Below, piece by piece: positions 3,424 through 13,124 of a DNA stretch of 37,401 bases; position 1 is the stretch's first letter; the number at the start of each line of letters is the position of its first letter. Position numbers and translations under genes: made by a program. The notes beneath the pieces were generated by a model. The model was not told the origin of the DNA. It was given only the letters and a program-made list of their open reading frames with translations, and did not search any database. Source of the DNA: a virus; the IMG/VR virus record IMGVR_UViG_3300036768_000079, positions 1 to 37,401 of that record; one strand, 5' to 3'.

Positions 3424-4119
3424 TTATGTGTATTCTTCCCAAACAACATCAACCTGCCAGTGGTTAGTCGCTGGGTTGCCAGTTGTAGCAACACCATCAA
3501 CAACAACCAGCAAGGCTTCGTTTGCCCGCAGGATAATTGGTGAACCACTAATGATTAACTCATGCGGTAGAGATAACACCTGACCAGCTAATGTATGTAG
3601 CCTCATACTGTAATCAGCACGAAGCATTGTTCCTGCTGTTGCTGTAATTGCTGTTGCTGCACCACCATCGGAAGCAGTTGCACCACGCACGATAACTGAT
3701 GATGATGATGATTTCGTGCTATCTATTAAGCCCTTTGAAAGCACTGTCCCACCAGTAGGCAGAGCTGTCGGACGTGATAACTTAACCAATGGCATATTAG
3801 CTGTTAGCGCAGATGTTGCATCCATCTCTACGCTTATATTCTTGACGCTAACAAGAACTGTCGAACCTGCCGAATTTTCAATGGAGAATATATTTTGTAA
3901 TGCAGCGGCGTTACCTAGCGTACGAAATGTCGAGGCCATTCCTACACATGAGATTGTCCGAGTATCTGTTGTAACTGGCAGGGGATTTGTCTTGGCGACA
4001 TCGCCATCGTTAGTACCATCAATGCCGTGTATGAGCTTTACTCGCTGATACTTAGCACCACCAATATCGTCTGCTGCGACAACTGATGATGCGCCAGGTA
4101 AGGTTATATTATCTGCCAT
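3424..4119 (-). CDS. Virion structural protein
   Basis: 231 residues, beginning ADNITLPGASSVVAADDIGG and rich in Thr, Ala, Ser and Val, a composition typical of beta-rich phage structural proteins. The N-terminal pattern (LPG ... VVAxDDIGGAKYQRVKL) resembles a family seen beside portal genes in other phages. No enzymatic motif is visible. It lies in a tight same-strand run of structural genes. Exact location in the particle (head decoration or neck) cannot be read from sequence. Confidence 0.6.
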   Translation of the reverse strand: MADNITLPGASSVVAADDIGGAKYQRVKLIHGIDGTNDGDVAKTNPLPVTTDTRTISCVGMASTFRTLGNAAALQNIFSIENSAGSTVLVSVKNISVEMDATSALTANMPLVKLSRPTALPTGGTVLSKGLIDSTKSSSSSVIVRGATASDGGAATAITATAGTMLRADYSMRLHTLAGQVLSLPHELIISGSPIILRANEALLVVVDGVATTGNPATNHWQVDVVWEEYT

Positions 4120-4128
4120 GATGACTCC

Positions 4129-4926
4129 TTAGAATGTAAGCACACACTGCGGTGTTGCCGTTGTGCTTGTTATATTTACTGCTGTTGCTGCTGAGAGAAC
4201 CGGGATTTTTTTATCTACATCAGCTACCCACAACCGGCGAGGCTTGGCTTTGAAGATTTGCCATGGGTTGGCAGAAAGCGATGCAGCTTCTGCCGATGAT
4301 AATGCTCTATTGACACTACCAACTAAATAAAACTCATGGTCTGCATAGAAACTATTAATGCCAGACTGTCCTACTGAAACAGTACCATCCCCTCCAAGAA
4401 GAGTTCCAGATGATGTTGCAACAAGAATGCCGTTTTTGTATGTTGATGTAGTATTTGTAGATAAATCACTTACAGAAACTAAAATACAGTATTCATTAGC
4501 GGAGACAATACCAGCTTGTGTGAATTGAACGTTTACATTTGTTGTAACAAAAAGAATATCTGTATTATTTGTAATTCTCCACATCTCTCCGCCAGAACCA
4601 CCACTACTAAGAATAGCTCTATTCGATCCACCATTACCAACACGCAATACTGCGAACCTTGATAATGAGCCAGTACCTTTAATTTTTATATTTGACGGGC
4701 CAGAAAAATAACCGCTAGTCCCATCTGGCTTTTTGCCAAGCCCATATTTACTATAAACAGTAGATATGCCACCATTAGGAAGATTAGCAACTGTTCCCCT
4801 ACTATCGCCCTGAAATGTAGGTGTGAAAAAATAATCAATAGACCTACCAATAGGGTTGTTGGTGTCAATCTGAACCGGATATTGTGGCTGGCTAGTCCAA
4901 ATACGAGGAAGAATCAGGCTACTCAT
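4129..4926 (-). CDS. LamG/concanavalin-like structural protein
   Basis: 265 residues. The central part (residues about 60-215) has the pattern of a LamG or concanavalin-A-like jelly roll: alternating beta strands, LSRFAVLRVGNGGSNRAILS, then EYCILVSVSDLSTNT and YKNGILVATSSGTL, and a final EFYLVGSVNRALSSAEAASL. Such domains bind sugars or decorate phage heads. The C-terminus (PWQIFKAKPRRLWV) is a common ending for these proteins. Co-directional with the structural block. I infer a surface-displayed carbohydrate-binding role. Confidence 0.65.
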   Translation of the reverse strand: MSSLILPRIWTSQPQYPVQIDTNNPIGRSIDYFFTPTFQGDSRGTVANLPNGGISTVYSKYGLGKKPDGTSGYFSGPSNIKIKGTGSLSRFAVLRVGNGGSNRAILSSGGSGGEMWRITNNTDILFVTTNVNVQFTQAGIVSANEYCILVSVSDLSTNTTSTYKNGILVATSSGTLLGGDGTVSVGQSGINSFYADHEFYLVGSVNRALSSAEAASLSANPWQIFKAKPRRLWVADVDKKIPVLSAATAVNITSTTATPQCVLTF

Positions 4927-4936
4927 GGCCTAATCC

Positions 4937-5386
4937 TTACACTACAGTAGAACTGATCTCACTGGTGAACGCAGACCCACTGGTAAGTGCCACCCCCAAG
5001 TCATTCTTGATAACGATCTTAAACGCATACGGGCAATATCCCAATGCCTGTGCTACAGAGAATGTCCCAATCTGTGTTGTACCTACGCTATTCATTGGCA
5101 CAGTACCAAGCAAGCGAAGATTCGGCTCATCCGTTGTTGTAGTTCCACTTCCAGGGCCAGAGCGAAAGTTCGTGCCATCTAGTGATTCCTGTACAAATAC
5201 CACTACCTGCTTATTGCCTGCTGGTGTGTTAGTTGTCGCCACATCGACTTCAACAACAACGTCTAGCGGCTGATTCGTGTTGGCTGTGTAGATTGCCGAG
5301 CTAACATACGTTCCAGATGCAAGCATACTTAAGCCAGTAACAGTTAGACTTGTGCGTGCGCCTACTATTTGTTTTATCGTAGCCAT
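4937..5386 (-). CDS. Virion structural protein
   Basis: 149 residues, Thr/Val-rich and probably a single beta-sandwich (VVVEVDVATTNTPAGNKQVV, VFVQESLDGTNF). This pattern suggests a small decoration or neck protein. The start at 5386 overlaps the stop of the upstream gene by one base, so translation is coupled. No catalytic residues are apparent. Assigned as structural from composition and neighbours only. Confidence 0.55.
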   Translation of the reverse strand: MATIKQIVGARTSLTVTGLSMLASGTYVSSAIYTANTNQPLDVVVEVDVATTNTPAGNKQVVVFVQESLDGTNFRSGPGSGTTTTDEPNLRLLGTVPMNSVGTTQIGTFSVAQALGYCPYAFKIVIKNDLGVALTSGSAFTSEISSTVV

Positions 5387-9938: not shown

Positions 9939-10409
9939 TCAATCGCTGTGTTTCACTTCAATAAACTCGCCTTCGATAACATCAGGCTTCTCCTCCAGTT
10001 CTGGATGCGTCGAGCCAATCACAATCTTAAAACTAACATCGCCTCCCTTTACAGAACCTAATCCATCGCCCCAGGTATCCCTATCCAGCTTCGCCGCCAC
10101 CTTCATGTAGTGATCGCTCTGCAATTTCGCCACCCCAAGCGTCTCCTGATCCGCATTCATGACAACATTCATCGCCTTCCATTCCAATTCATCAGCACGC
10201 GCTTTCCGAGCAACATCAAATACCTCAGGGCAATTCTCCAAAACCCATCCTTTCAACACGGTGTAGCTAATGCCAAGATCAGCAGCAATCTTGCTCGGCT
10301 GATTACCTTCAAATAACTGAGTGATCAGATAATCATACAGCCATTCATTGCCTTTCTCAGCAACAATCGAATCCAGAATCGCATACTGCTGTCGTTTAAG
10401 TTTCCCCAT
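9939..10409 (-). CDS. terS: Terminase small subunit
   Basis: 156 residues. The N-terminal half carries a helix-turn-helix (NQPSKIAADLGISYTVLKGW, residues about 35-55) for recognition of the packaging site. It is followed by a helical oligomerisation region (ARADELEWKAMNVVMNADQE) and an acidic C-terminal tail that may contact the large subunit. It precedes terL by 18 bp and its start overlaps the stop of the upstream HTH gene. This arrangement and length are normal for phage small terminases. Confidence 0.85.
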   Translation of the reverse strand: MGKLKRQQYAILDSIVAEKGNEWLYDYLITQLFEGNQPSKIAADLGISYTVLKGWVLENCPEVFDVARKARADELEWKAMNVVMNADQETLGVAKLQSDHYMKVAAKLDRDTWGDGLGSVKGGDVSFKIVIGSTHPELEEKPDVIEGEFIEVKHSD

Positions 10410-10614
10410 GATTACTTCCTTTTGCCTGCAAGGAATTGTTATGAGACGTCAGTGAAATCGTCAACTCAAATAACTTTACCCCGCGCTCAGGTATCTTCAC
10501 TTTCCCACTCTCCCACCTCGCCCATGTCCTAGGCGATACAAGCGCATATCTCGCTGCTTGCTCTATCGTCATACGAGCATCAAGCCGCATCTGTTTCAAT
10601 TCTCTTGCGTTCAT
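10396..10614 (-). CDS. HTH (Cro/XRE-like) regulator heading the late operon
   Basis: 72 residues if started at the ATG 10612-10614 (MNARELKQMRLDARMTIEQA). A longer in-frame start at 10638 is unlikely because it would lie inside the promoter and its palindrome. Residues 1-50 form an XRE-type helix-turn-helix (MTIEQAARYALVSPRTWARW, then ESGKVKIPERG). First gene of the leftward late block, overlapping terS. The predicted transcription start is at or within a base or two of this ATG and no Shine-Dalgarno sequence is visible, so the message may be leaderless, as with lambda cI. I infer an autoregulator of late transcription. Confidence 0.65.
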   Translation of the reverse strand: MNARELKQMRLDARMTIEQAARYALVSPRTWARWESGKVKIPERGVKLFELTISLTSHNNSLQAKGSNHGET

Positions 10615-10620
10615 TGGCGT

Positions 10621-10648
10621 AGTATGACATATTGTCATTAGATGTCAA
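10621..10648 (-). promoter_or_regulatory. Leftward promoter with embedded palindromic operator
   Basis: On the minus strand TTGACA (10643-10648) is separated by 16 bp from CATACT (10621-10626, 4 of 6 matches to TATAAT). The spacer contains most of a perfect 13-bp palindrome, TGACATATTGTCA, at 10625-10637. This is a natural operator site for the HTH protein encoded just downstream. The promoter would drive regulator, terminase and probably the following structural genes. Confidence 0.55.
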
Positions 10649-10916: not shown

Positions 10917-10972
10917 TTTCCGCGCCTATACCTGCAAGTCGATGGGGGGCGCTAAGTATCCTAGGTTTACTA

Positions 10973-11285
10973 ATGGCACATATGGCACTTTGTTTGTAAA
11001 CCAATCTATAAAATGGCAGATATGGCAGATTGTCAGAAACACAATCTATGAAATGGCACATATGGCGGATTGTTTTAAAAGTGATTAGCAATTATTGACT
11101 ATGGCACATATGGCAGATCATGGCGCGTTTTTGACAAACTATTTTGCGATACTCATCGAATGGCGGATTGTGGCACATTATGGCGGATTTTGACGTTTTT
11201 TGTAAACTTCTTACGCGCGGGCGCGCGCGCGGGTGTACTTTTCAAAAATGGTAAAAATGTGCCATTATCTGCCATTATCTGCCAT
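10973..11285. repeat. ATGGCRSAT iteron family, direct and inverted clusters
   Basis: Nine-base units close to ATGGCACAT, ATGGCAGAT or ATGGCGGAT. They occur as pairs 9 bp apart at 10973/10982, 11013/11022, 11053/11062 and 11101/11110 (with a third at 11120), and as triplets 10 bp apart at 11160/11170/11180. An inverted triplet lies at 11257/11267/11277. The first three pairs repeat every 40 bp. Two pairs are bracketed by CAATCT on the left and AGATTG or GGATTG on the right, so they are partly palindromic. This looks like a helically phased protein-binding array, probably initiator or master-regulator sites. Confidence 0.7.
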
Positions 11286-11362: not shown

Positions 11363-11391
11363 TTGACAAAAGAAAAATAAATTTTTATAGT
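11363..11391 (+). promoter_or_regulatory. Strong rightward early promoter
   Basis: TTGACA at 11363-11368, a 17-bp spacer, then TATAGT at 11386-11391: a full -35 match and 5 of 6 at -10. The predicted start near 11398 gives a transcript that opens with a small hairpin. The AT-rich spacer (AAAGAAAAATAA) resembles that of the promoter at 17225. The inverted iteron triplet ends about 80 bp upstream and could regulate it. Confidence 0.75.
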
Positions 11392-11435: not shown

Positions 11436-11696
11436 ATGAAGTCCATTCTATTTTTCGACCTACTCACCAAAGATCGCCGGCGCATTGAGAAATCCATCGG
11501 GACGCTTGACCAGTTCGCTGGTCGCGTCTGGCGCACCATCGTGCGCGACGATGACCGCGCGCGCGAAATCATCCGCGCTGCGCATGAAGCAGCACGCGTT
11601 CCGCTCCGCTTCCTCGTCATTGACGAGGCGGAATTCGCCGCCGGCTGGGGCGTCATCACTCAATCCGCCGTCTTCGGCGGACCGTTTAGCCAATAA
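11436..11696 (+). CDS. First early gene, hairpin-rich GC-rich ORF, function unknown
   Basis: 86 residues (MKSILFFDLLTKDRRRIEKS at the start). I chose the ATG at 11436 because AAGGAGATAAGC precedes it directly; the upstream in-frame start has no such site. Charged, with many Arg and Asp in the middle (RTIVRDDDRAREI), and no known motif. The DNA is much more GC-rich than its flanks and holds several perfect stem-loops: 11508-11523 with a TTCG loop, 11531-11546, 11612-11628 and 11664-11681. As the first gene from a strong early promoter it is a candidate host-takeover protein. That role is inferred from position only. Confidence 0.6.
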   Translation: MKSILFFDLLTKDRRRIEKSIGTLDQFAGRVWRTIVRDDDRAREIIRAAHEAARVPLRFLVIDEAEFAAGWGVITQSAVFGGPFSQ

Positions 11697-12287
11697 CCTA
11701 AGGAGATAAACCATGAAAATAATAAAGCTCGGGATTGACGGCGTCGAACCGGCTATCCCCAAAAAAGCCACTCACCCCACAAGGGGTGAGTATCTACGCT
11801 TCGAACATGGCCAAGATGGTCGCGGGCGTAAGCTCGTTTTTTTCCCGCTGGGAAGCAAAGACTTTCCAGCGGAACTCGGCATGCCGGGGACGGATCAGGA
11901 ATACCGGCTTATCCCGGTATCGGAGGGCCGGGCGTACATACTCGGGCGGGAAAACCGCCCGAGTAACGATTATCTCGTGCTACTCAGTCTCAACCCCGGA
12001 TACCGGGGTGAGGCTGAGTACGAGATCGAGGGCGATGCGGTATGCATCGCCGAGGGGCGTGAAGCTCAAGGCGACGCGGGACGGATGGGCGGGGCACCAT
12101 GCCCTGTCATTCTCGTAACCGGGCCATGTACCCTGAAATGGGTACGCACGGGCCGCCTTTACGGATCGACTGCGAAATGGCGGGCCGTTTTCAACGGTCA
12201 GGCATGGACCGTCTCGCACGACGGCCCGGAAACTGATGCGGTGGAAGCCGCGTTCTGCTAAAACCCCACGCCGTCTGGCGAGACGGC
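11508..12287 (+). repeat. Dense series of perfect and near-perfect stem-loops across two ORFs
   Basis: Stems seen: 11508-11523 (6 bp, TTCG loop), 11531-11546 (6 bp), 11612-11628 (7 bp), 11664-11681 (7 bp), 11770-11791 (9 bp), 11845-11872 (10 bp with one G-T), 11877-11886 (10-bp palindrome), 11901-11920 (7 bp), 11939-11965 (11 bp), 11972-12026 (long imperfect, about 24 pairs), 12031-12051 (8 bp), 12128-12145 (6 bp), 12181-12228 (8 bp enclosing a 5-bp stem) and 12270-12287 (7 bp). They are different sequences, not copies of one element, and almost tile the region. This is far above what coding sequence normally shows. Confidence 0.75.
11713..12261 (+). CDS. Second early gene, hairpin-rich GC-rich ORF, function unknown
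   Basis: 182 residues beginning MKIIKLGIDGVEPAIPKKAT, with TAAGGAGATAAACC before the ATG. The middle reads as beta strands (EYRLIPVSEGRAYILGRENR; YLVLLSLNPGYRGEAEYEIE), so a small beta-rich domain is likely. I do not recognise a family. Its DNA is GC-rich and contains around ten stem-loops, so codon choice is constrained or shaped by folding. The symmetry also creates spurious ORFs on both strands; the plus frame is chosen for its ribosome-binding site and downstream coupling. Expressed from the early promoter, it may act in host takeover or the folded RNA/DNA may matter itself. Confidence 0.6.
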   Translation: MKIIKLGIDGVEPAIPKKATHPTRGEYLRFEHGQDGRGRKLVFFPLGSKDFPAELGMPGTDQEYRLIPVSEGRAYILGRENRPSNDYLVLLSLNPGYRGEAEYEIEGDAVCIAEGREAQGDAGRMGGAPCPVILVTGPCTLKWVRTGRLYGSTAKWRAVFNGQAWTVSHDGPETDAVEAAFC

Positions 12288-12296
12288 CCGTTTAAT
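12270..12296 (+). terminator. Weak terminator-like hairpin after the hairpin-rich genes
   Basis: GCCGTCT, loop GGCG, AGACGGC form a 7-bp stem followed by CCGTTTAATT. The T-tract is short, so it may be a partial terminator or an mRNA-stabilising hairpin rather than a full stop. Confidence 0.35.
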
Positions 12297-12341
12297 TAAG
12301 CAGTTTAACAATCAATGAAATATAAACGAGGGATAAATAAA

Positions 12342-13124
12342 ATGGAAAACTTAACAGAAAATAGAATGCAAAAATATTTAGTCGAAGCCGTAAGCAGGCC
12401 TGGCGTTTTGTCAACGGCTTACTCTGCATTTAATAACTACAGTTTAGGGAATCAAATTGCCGCATTTTGCCAGTTAACCGCGCGCGGCTTGCCTATTTCT
12501 CCCATAGCATCCTATAAGGCATGGCAAGAAAAAGGCCGCAATGTTAAAAAAGGCGAAAAGGCACTCTCGCTATGTATGCCTATTGTCGGCAAAAAAACAA
12601 ACAAAGAAACAGGCGAAGAAGAAGTGTATACATTCTTCGCTTGGAAGAATAACTGGTTCTCGCTAGATCAAACCGAAGGCGCCGATTATGTTCATGAAAT
12701 ATCAACCCCTGAATGGGATTCTGATATTGCGTTACAAGCACTAAATATCACACAAGGCAGTTTTAATCATATAGACGGAAACTGCCAAGGATACGCTAGC
12801 GGCCGTTCGATTGCCATAAACCCATTAGCAGAATTTCCGCATAAAACACGGTTTCACGAAATAGCGCATGTAGTTTTAGGCCATTGCGAGGAAGTTACTA
12901 TGTCTGATAGCGACAAAACGCCTAAAGACATTAAAGAAGTCGAAGCCGAAAGCGTAGCCTATATTTTATGCTCACTCTTAGGATTGCCGGGCCTTGAAGA
13001 ATCGCGCGGTTATATTCAGTCTTGGCTTGTCGGTAATACTATCAACGAGAAAAGCGCCCAAAAAATATTTGCCGCCGCTGATAAGATTCTCAAAGCAGGA
13101 AAACGGCAAGAGGTGACAGCATGA
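12342..13124 (+). CDS. ardC: ArdC-like anti-restriction protein (ssDNA-binding domain plus metalloprotease-like domain)
   Basis: 260 residues from the ATG at 12342, which follows GAGGGATAAATAAA; an upstream in-frame ATG at 12315 lacks a site. The N-terminal 110 residues match the ArdC/primase-TraC-like ssDNA-binding fold (YSLGNQ within the first 40 residues, then KGEKALSLCMPI). The C-terminal half has the zinc-protease motif HEIAHVVLGH (about residue 172) and a downstream EVEAESVAYIL supplying the third ligand. ArdC proteins protect incoming DNA against restriction. An early position fits that use. The stop overlaps the next tiny ORF (ATGA). Confidence 0.78.
   Translation: MENLTENRMQKYLVEAVSRPGVLSTAYSAFNNYSLGNQIAAFCQLTARGLPISPIASYKAWQEKGRNVKKGEKALSLCMPIVGKKTNKETGEEEVYTFFAWKNNWFSLDQTEGADYVHEISTPEWDSDIALQALNITQGSFNHIDGNCQGYASGRSIAINPLAEFPHKTRFHEIAHVVLGHCEEVTMSDSDKTPKDIKEVEAESVAYILCSLLGLPGLEESRGYIQSWLVGNTINEKSAQKIFAAADKILKAGKRQEVTA

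Follow-up and report, generated by a model that had tools for sequence, protein, structure and literature searches.

Palindromes in mitochondrial coding genes of Nematomorpha reach 284 bp, occur in many genes, are perfectly matched and are biased in codon phase (PMC6649704). A bias towards local folding in the middle of coding sequences is an average tendency across the genes of most species (PMC7063772), and in staphylococcal phages an RNA from the terS-terL region, the cabRNA, triggers CBASS via CdnE cyclases (PMC10686824). Here, we describe a viral gene, ORF2, that shares traits with each of these systems and differs from each. As in Nematomorpha, functional coding genes contain perfect inverted repeats that differ between relatives and are gained and lost; unlike there, the stems of the ORF2 family are mostly 7-15 bp long, contain some mismatches and G-U pairs, are found in one gene family and have no clear phase bias, and perfect repeats of tens to hundreds of bp were found neither in the window (the whole 37.4-kb virus record analysed) nor in its relative L021. 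As in the mid-coding-sequence bias, local folding within the ORF2 coding sequence exceeds that of codon-preserving shuffles, but it is confined to one gene and raises the folding energy of the hairpin-tiled members of the family by roughly 20-60%. The predicted hairpin-bearing RNA resembles the cabRNA in that it would derive from phage coding genes and is unrelated in sequence between phages; unlike the cabRNA region, the ORF2 gene lies outside terS-terL, in a separate unit that is divergent from the terminase in the window and in the related contig L046. Pam2_165 of the Pseudanabaena phage Pam2 and its counterpart in phage PA-SR01 belong to the same family (28% identical in alignment) and have the motifs GRGRxL, AEGRxAQGxAGxMG and GRLYG in common with ORF2, but their genes are not hairpin-tiled.

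The hairpin-tiled gene and its setting

The window encodes a terminase, a portal protein, a D5-like primase-helicase and an ArdC-like anti-restriction protein. The nearest relatives of its terminase (61%) are on a small number of contigs from uncultured viruses, and a terminase that is 49% like it is on a contig of an uncultured beta-proteobacterium. ORF1 and ORF2 follow a strong promoter (Table 1), and TTGACA promoters are found at a similar distance upstream of the family members L021, L023, L030 and L050, which makes five copies including the window. Good ribosome-binding sites had been noted for both frames in the first-pass annotation, and each indeed has a AAGGAGATAA site; Shine-Dalgarno sites are strong in most family copies. 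The GC richness noted at the same time is also real, with 59-60% in ORF1 and ORF2 versus 43% in the remainder of the window. The ArdC-like gene that comes next is not rich in hairpins (folding z 0.2, synonymous shuffles).

Table 1 Features of the ORF1/ORF2 region, in window coordinates
Feature	Position	Strand	Remarks
Sigma-70-type promoter, strong	11363..11391	+	TTGACA-17-TATAGT; 11/12 consensus matches; upstream of ORF1 and ORF2
ORF1, 86 aa	11436..11696	+	GC 60%; mildly hairpin-rich only
Hairpin in ORF1	11612..11628	+	8 bp (CCTCGTCA/TGACGAGG)
Hairpin in ORF1	11664..11681	+	7 bp, loop TCTT
ORF2 (P0001), 182 aa	11713..12261	+	Hairpin-tiled; motifs GRGRxL, AEGRxAQGxAGxMG, GRLYG
Hairpin in ORF2	11770..11791	+	9 perfect pairs, codons THPTRGEY
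Hairpin in ORF2	11845..11872	+	10-11 pairs, codons PLGSKDFPAE
Hairpin in ORF2	11901..11920	+	7 pairs
Hairpin in ORF2	11939..11965	+	11 perfect pairs, loop GAAAA
Hairpin in ORF2	11972..12026	+	Nested, 24 pairs
Hairpin in ORF2	12031..12051	+	8 perfect pairs
Hairpin in ORF2	12088..12108	+	Over conserved GGAPCPV codons; in L021 too
Hairpin in ORF2	12127..12146	+	7 pairs
Hairpin at ORF2 end	12235..12254	+	L021 and L023 have hairpins near the same end
Terminator-like hairpin, 3' of ORF2	12270..12287	+	
N-terminal ArdC-like (anti-restriction) protein	12315..13124	+	Next gene after ORF2; Pfam ArdcN E 1.9e-7; PHROG 7245 anti-restriction E 4e-15

With the span limited to 70 nt, 64% of the bases of ORF2 are paired. 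The perfect 9-bp and 11-bp stems and the imperfect hairpin of about 24 pairs that had been described before were all recovered, the last one as a nested structure. Of the tight TTCG- and GAAAA-type loops reported with them, the GAAAA loop is present and the canonical UUCG is not; the ORF1 hairpin at 11664-11681 closes on TCTT. No family of Rfam 15 reached its gathering score in the window; matches to ALIL and MIR2646, obtained with permissive settings in the region of the gene or at related loci, were sub-threshold, had low scores and look like chance. A large non-coding RNA of the GOLLD or ROOL type was ruled out by the ribosome-binding sites on both ORFs and by the conservation of the ORF2 protein.

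Folding strength was judged against a null in which synonymous codons are exchanged within the gene, so that the protein and the codon counts stay unchanged. The mean folding energy of ORF2 in 60-nt windows was -23.3 kcal/mol versus -17.5 kcal/mol in these shuffles (z -7.1). Altogether, ORF2 folds about one third more strongly than shuffles with the same protein and codon usage (z about -8), with z from -7.1 to -10.5 across repeated runs and -9.8 against shuffles of codon order, and thus decisively passes the check by codon-preserving shuffles that had been proposed for it. For the remaining large genes of the window, z with synonymous shuffles lay between +0.9 and -3.7, and a dinucleotide-shuffle profile of the window peaks at 11700-12300. 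The coverage of ORF2 with perfect stems tops that of all 225 ORFs of lambda, Pam2, hairong, B1VFA and SSU5, and the same is true of L021. Both ORFs had been described as almost tiled with stems; this holds for ORF2, whereas the excess in ORF1 is weak (z -2.9 to -3.4 with synonymous shuffles; -2.5 and -0.5 in the dinucleotide-shuffle profile) and not clearly beyond that of ordinary genes (controls: mean -1.0, sd 1.6).

An undescribed protein family and its folding

Single-protein searches with P0001 and P0002 gave no relatives, and none were found for ORF1. Relatives of P0001 surfaced only after it had been aligned with weak cyanophage matches, that is, with a hypothetical protein of the Pseudanabaena phages Pam2 and PA-SR01. 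Alignment-based scans then gave about 18 members from viral contigs and the two Pseudanabaena phages, most of the loci being fragments of uncultured viruses. L021 (61% identical to P0001), L023 (64%), L022, L025, L026, L027, L029 and L030 belong to the family, as do L032, L045, L046, L048, L049, L050 and L051; the last contig has two tandem, diverged copies (3921-4502 and 4628-5221). In the alignments, the members have the three motifs of Table 1 and a length of about 180-260 aa. A match in L004 was discarded as a tandem-repeat artefact that contains a stop. About 800 bacterial genomes from two phyla yielded no full-length member and one marginal match of 68 residues. No model in Pfam, PHROG, NCBIfam or PADLOC covers the members scanned, nor did these collections provide a known defence or anti-defence homologue. 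An AlphaFold2 model of P0001 is all-beta and of low confidence (pLDDT 57, pTM 0.60); a fold search with it gave no usable match, the best viral hit having an E value of 0.02. ORF2 does encode a protein, one of a so far undescribed accessory family of phages.

Strong folding recurs in diverged members of this family. With synonymous shuffles, six are tiled, i.e. the window, L021, L023, L025, L032 and L046, with z from -5 to -14. L046 is the strongest (z -12 to -14.5; GC 50% amid surroundings of 38%), and values of -7 to -10 were obtained for L021, -7.7 to -11.3 for L025, -6.6 to -9.7 for L032 and -5.2 to -7.2 for L023. The excess is moderate in L026, L027 and L051 and weak in L029, L030, L045, L048 and L049; L022, L050 and the two cyanophage members are not tiled, and L050 and the cyanophage members fold in an essentially ordinary way.

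As controls we used 266 ORFs no shorter than 150 aa, taken from the contigs that carry the family and from the phages lambda, Pam2, hairong, B1VFA and SSU5, a small phage sample with mechanically called ORFs. The family differed from them with a Mann-Whitney p of 7e-8, or 8e-5 with one member per clade, and 6 of the 18 members but only 7 of the 266 controls had a z below -5.5 (p 4e-5); these p-values are optimistic, since the members are related. Among the 225 control ORFs, lambda O was the most extreme in energy ratio; this gene harbours the replication origin, so the measure is able to pick up real elements within coding sequence. The comparison with the 266 controls largely refutes the idea that ORF2 is a GC-rich transferred gene whose codon usage folds by chance and which was picked among many genes, to our mind the least probable of the explanations. 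It is true that ORF1, also GC-rich, gives impressive-looking stems at only z about -3, and that z values of -6 to -8 also occur in some ORFs outside the family (lambda FI, L027 3392-3886, hairong 3794-4495). Against this, GC and codon usage are held constant by the codon-preserving null, and chance would have to be repeated, each time with different stems, in three or more diverged clades (window/L021/L023; L032/L046; L025). A high GC content by itself does not explain the excess, which is seen in L025 at 43% GC and in L021 at 68%. In 11 of the 18 copies ranked (window, L021, L023, L025, L027, L030, L032, Pam2, PA-SR01, L046 and L050), no other stretch of that length in the fetched DNA is richer in GC than the gene; L022, L026, L029, L045, L048, L049 and L051 are the exceptions.

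Some control ORFs deserve mention in their own right. Lambda FI (L039 7163-7600) was the second strongest energy-ratio outlier among the controls (z -8.4), and we know of no element there. The unrelated ORFs L027 3392-3886 and L045 7751-8491 have a folding excess comparable to that of tiled members; the former overlaps another frame and lies directly 3' of the family gene.

Turnover of the stems and the level at which they may act

Covariation in homologues had been suggested as a check, and by eye it was convincing at first; the synonymous null overturned this. Between the window and L021, six pairs had changed on both sides versus 7.9 expected, so compensatory double changes are not above the null, and the covariation term of RNAalifold was unfavourable (+6.9). 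The RNAalifold z of -7.1 for the window, L021 and L023 was obtained against a synonymous null that also removes the codons they share. Stems are gained and lost between these three sequences or shift their register. The codons homologous to the hairpin at 11770-11791 are also covered by a hairpin in L023 and, shifted, in L021; over the PLGSKDFPAE codons (codons 45-54) L021 has a perfect hairpin of 14 bp with the register moved by about 4 nt; no perfect stem in L021 is longer, and in the window none exceeds 11 bp. The null level of changes on both sides, together with the shifted hairpin at codons 45-54, indicates that it is the property that recurs and not a structure: the recurrent trait is local fullness with hairpins.

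Turnover of this kind would also be expected if the hairpins arose and were maintained at the level of DNA, either because template switching at replication perfects imperfect inverted repeats or because the hairpins have a role in phage DNA while it is single-stranded. The gene would tolerate or collect them, a behaviour also proposed for hairworm mitochondrial palindromes. This is the main rival explanation, a possible though rather doubtful one. Template switching is able to create RNA hairpins (PMC8794818), and the coding palindromes of hairworms undergo similar gain and loss (PMC6649704). The paired excess is nearly all Watson-Crick (831 versus 290 expected), with few G-U pairs, fewer than selection on RNA alone would lead one to expect. 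Moreover, the codon phases of 41 stems, counted by hand, were about even (16/10/15), whereas a bias against one phase is expected if only synonymous sites are tuned, and the antisense strand, too, folds in excess over shuffles. A mutational process should, however, hit the neighbours of the gene as well, and in the window, L021 and L025 the structure is limited to the gene, starting and stopping near its borders; in L032 structure extends over upstream sequence, and the surroundings are also structured in L023. The arms lack the one-sided divergence that template switching would leave, and the stems contain mismatches and G-U pairs. G-U outnumbered A-C among the mismatch types (29 versus 14, p 0.03), but not significantly in the six strong members alone (18 versus 10, p 0.18). 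Relative to shuffles, the sense strand folds better than the antisense strand over 19 copies (Stouffer -3.8, related copies not being independent); the difference is clear in the window, L021 and one of the L051 copies (L051b) and small elsewhere, with no clear difference in L025, L027, L032 and L046. Taken together, the evidence tilts to RNA rather than deciding for it.

We favour the view, raised as a possibility in the first-pass annotation, that the folded RNA or single-stranded DNA may itself be functional; nuclease resistance, sequestration of a host RNA-binding protein, ribosome pausing and priming had been named there as candidate roles. More specifically, and tentatively, the coding sequence of ORF2 may have been selected to be full of short-range hairpins, with a role at the level of the mRNA that would most likely be protection from single-strand cleavage or guide binding. 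The message would be transcribed from a strong promoter of host type and would fold in the cell such that hardly any long stretch stays single-stranded. Its hairpins could resist RNases specific for single strands, whether these serve host RNA decay or defence, or alternatively block the binding of guide RNAs, while an open ribosome-binding site would still permit translation of the folded message. Any set of hairpins would serve, which would explain why relatives have different stems and why these show no covariation. Homologues with the protein but none of the stems had been named beforehand as evidence against a functional fold, and this applies in part: L022, L050, L030 and the cyanophage members, PA-SR01 among them, keep the protein and are not tiled, and they speak against selection on the mRNA; the tiled diverged relatives are of the opposite kind. 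If the folding is selected, what is conserved in this DNA phage gene would be a physical state of its message and no particular RNA structure.

Two further roles of a folded message have to be weighed. Structure in the mRNA could slow ribosomes for the folding of a beta-rich protein, or tune translation in some other way, as an extreme form of the mid-coding-sequence bias. Coding sequence in mid-gene generally folds more strongly than shuffles (PMC7063772), the low-confidence model of P0001 is all-beta, and predicted turns are covered by some stems (codons 20-27 and 76-85); several others lie inside predicted strands of this poorly resolved model, the size of the effect is far above that of control genes, and the stem-free members share the conserved motifs and presumably the same fold. 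We regard such tuning as distinctly unlikely. Phage messages with hairpins that are recognised by proteins are classical, and the hairpins of ORF2 might likewise be binding sites by which the message captures its own gene product (autoregulation), a host RNA-binding protein or RNase III. By eye, no loop or stem motif was common to the hairpins compared, within or between members, which argues against sequence-specific sequestration; the protein, moreover, has no similarity to known families or solved structures. CBASS cyclases can sense structured phage transcripts (PMC10686824), but such sensing would disfavour this kind of RNA rather than favour it. Binding sites are a very improbable explanation.

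Defence-related neighbours and adjacent sequences

Defence-related genes were found near the family gene in 3 of about 14 contexts, i.e. an ArdC-like gene in the window, a B116/DUF1874-like gene in L023 and a type IV Cas7 gene in L032; the other contexts examined had none. This neighbourhood is a lead only. In a bolder reading, the family would harden its own message, an arbitrary chain of hairpins letting an early, probably anti-defence, protein appear despite RNA-cutting or RNA-guided defences; we consider this extended reading unlikely. If the folding is selected, the tiled and untiled members of this unnamed protein family offer a clean system for asking whether structure shields transcripts from RNases or RNA-guided immunity, and the family is worth testing for anti-defence activity.

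The gene in L023 (4565-4882) lies directly 3' of the ORF2 homologue and is like STIV B116, of the ring nuclease/AcrIII-1 family; that in L032 (2218-3051) encodes a type IV CRISPR Cas7 (Csf2) on a viral contig (PADLOC E 2e-81), 1.2 kb from the family member. Upstream of ORF1 in the window, the terminase unit opens, divergently from ORF1 and ORF2, with a gene for a small HTH protein (10396-10638, minus strand) that has Pfam matches to Aca2/YdiL and HTH_31. Aca proteins are regulators of anti-CRISPR units. Between this unit and the ORF1 promoter, at 10970-11285, words of the ATGGCACATATGGCAGATTGT type are repeated near a sign change of the GC skew; they are iteron-like and may mark a replication origin. 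L046 has similar leaders before the family gene (3930-3990) and before the next gene (about 4680-4735), neither with a match in Rfam. The loops of their hairpins (CCTGTGT and CCTGTGC) are complementary to ACACAGG and GCACAGG, respectively, just 5' of the ribosome-binding site, and judged from these complementary sequences the leaders are possible covarying pseudoknots.
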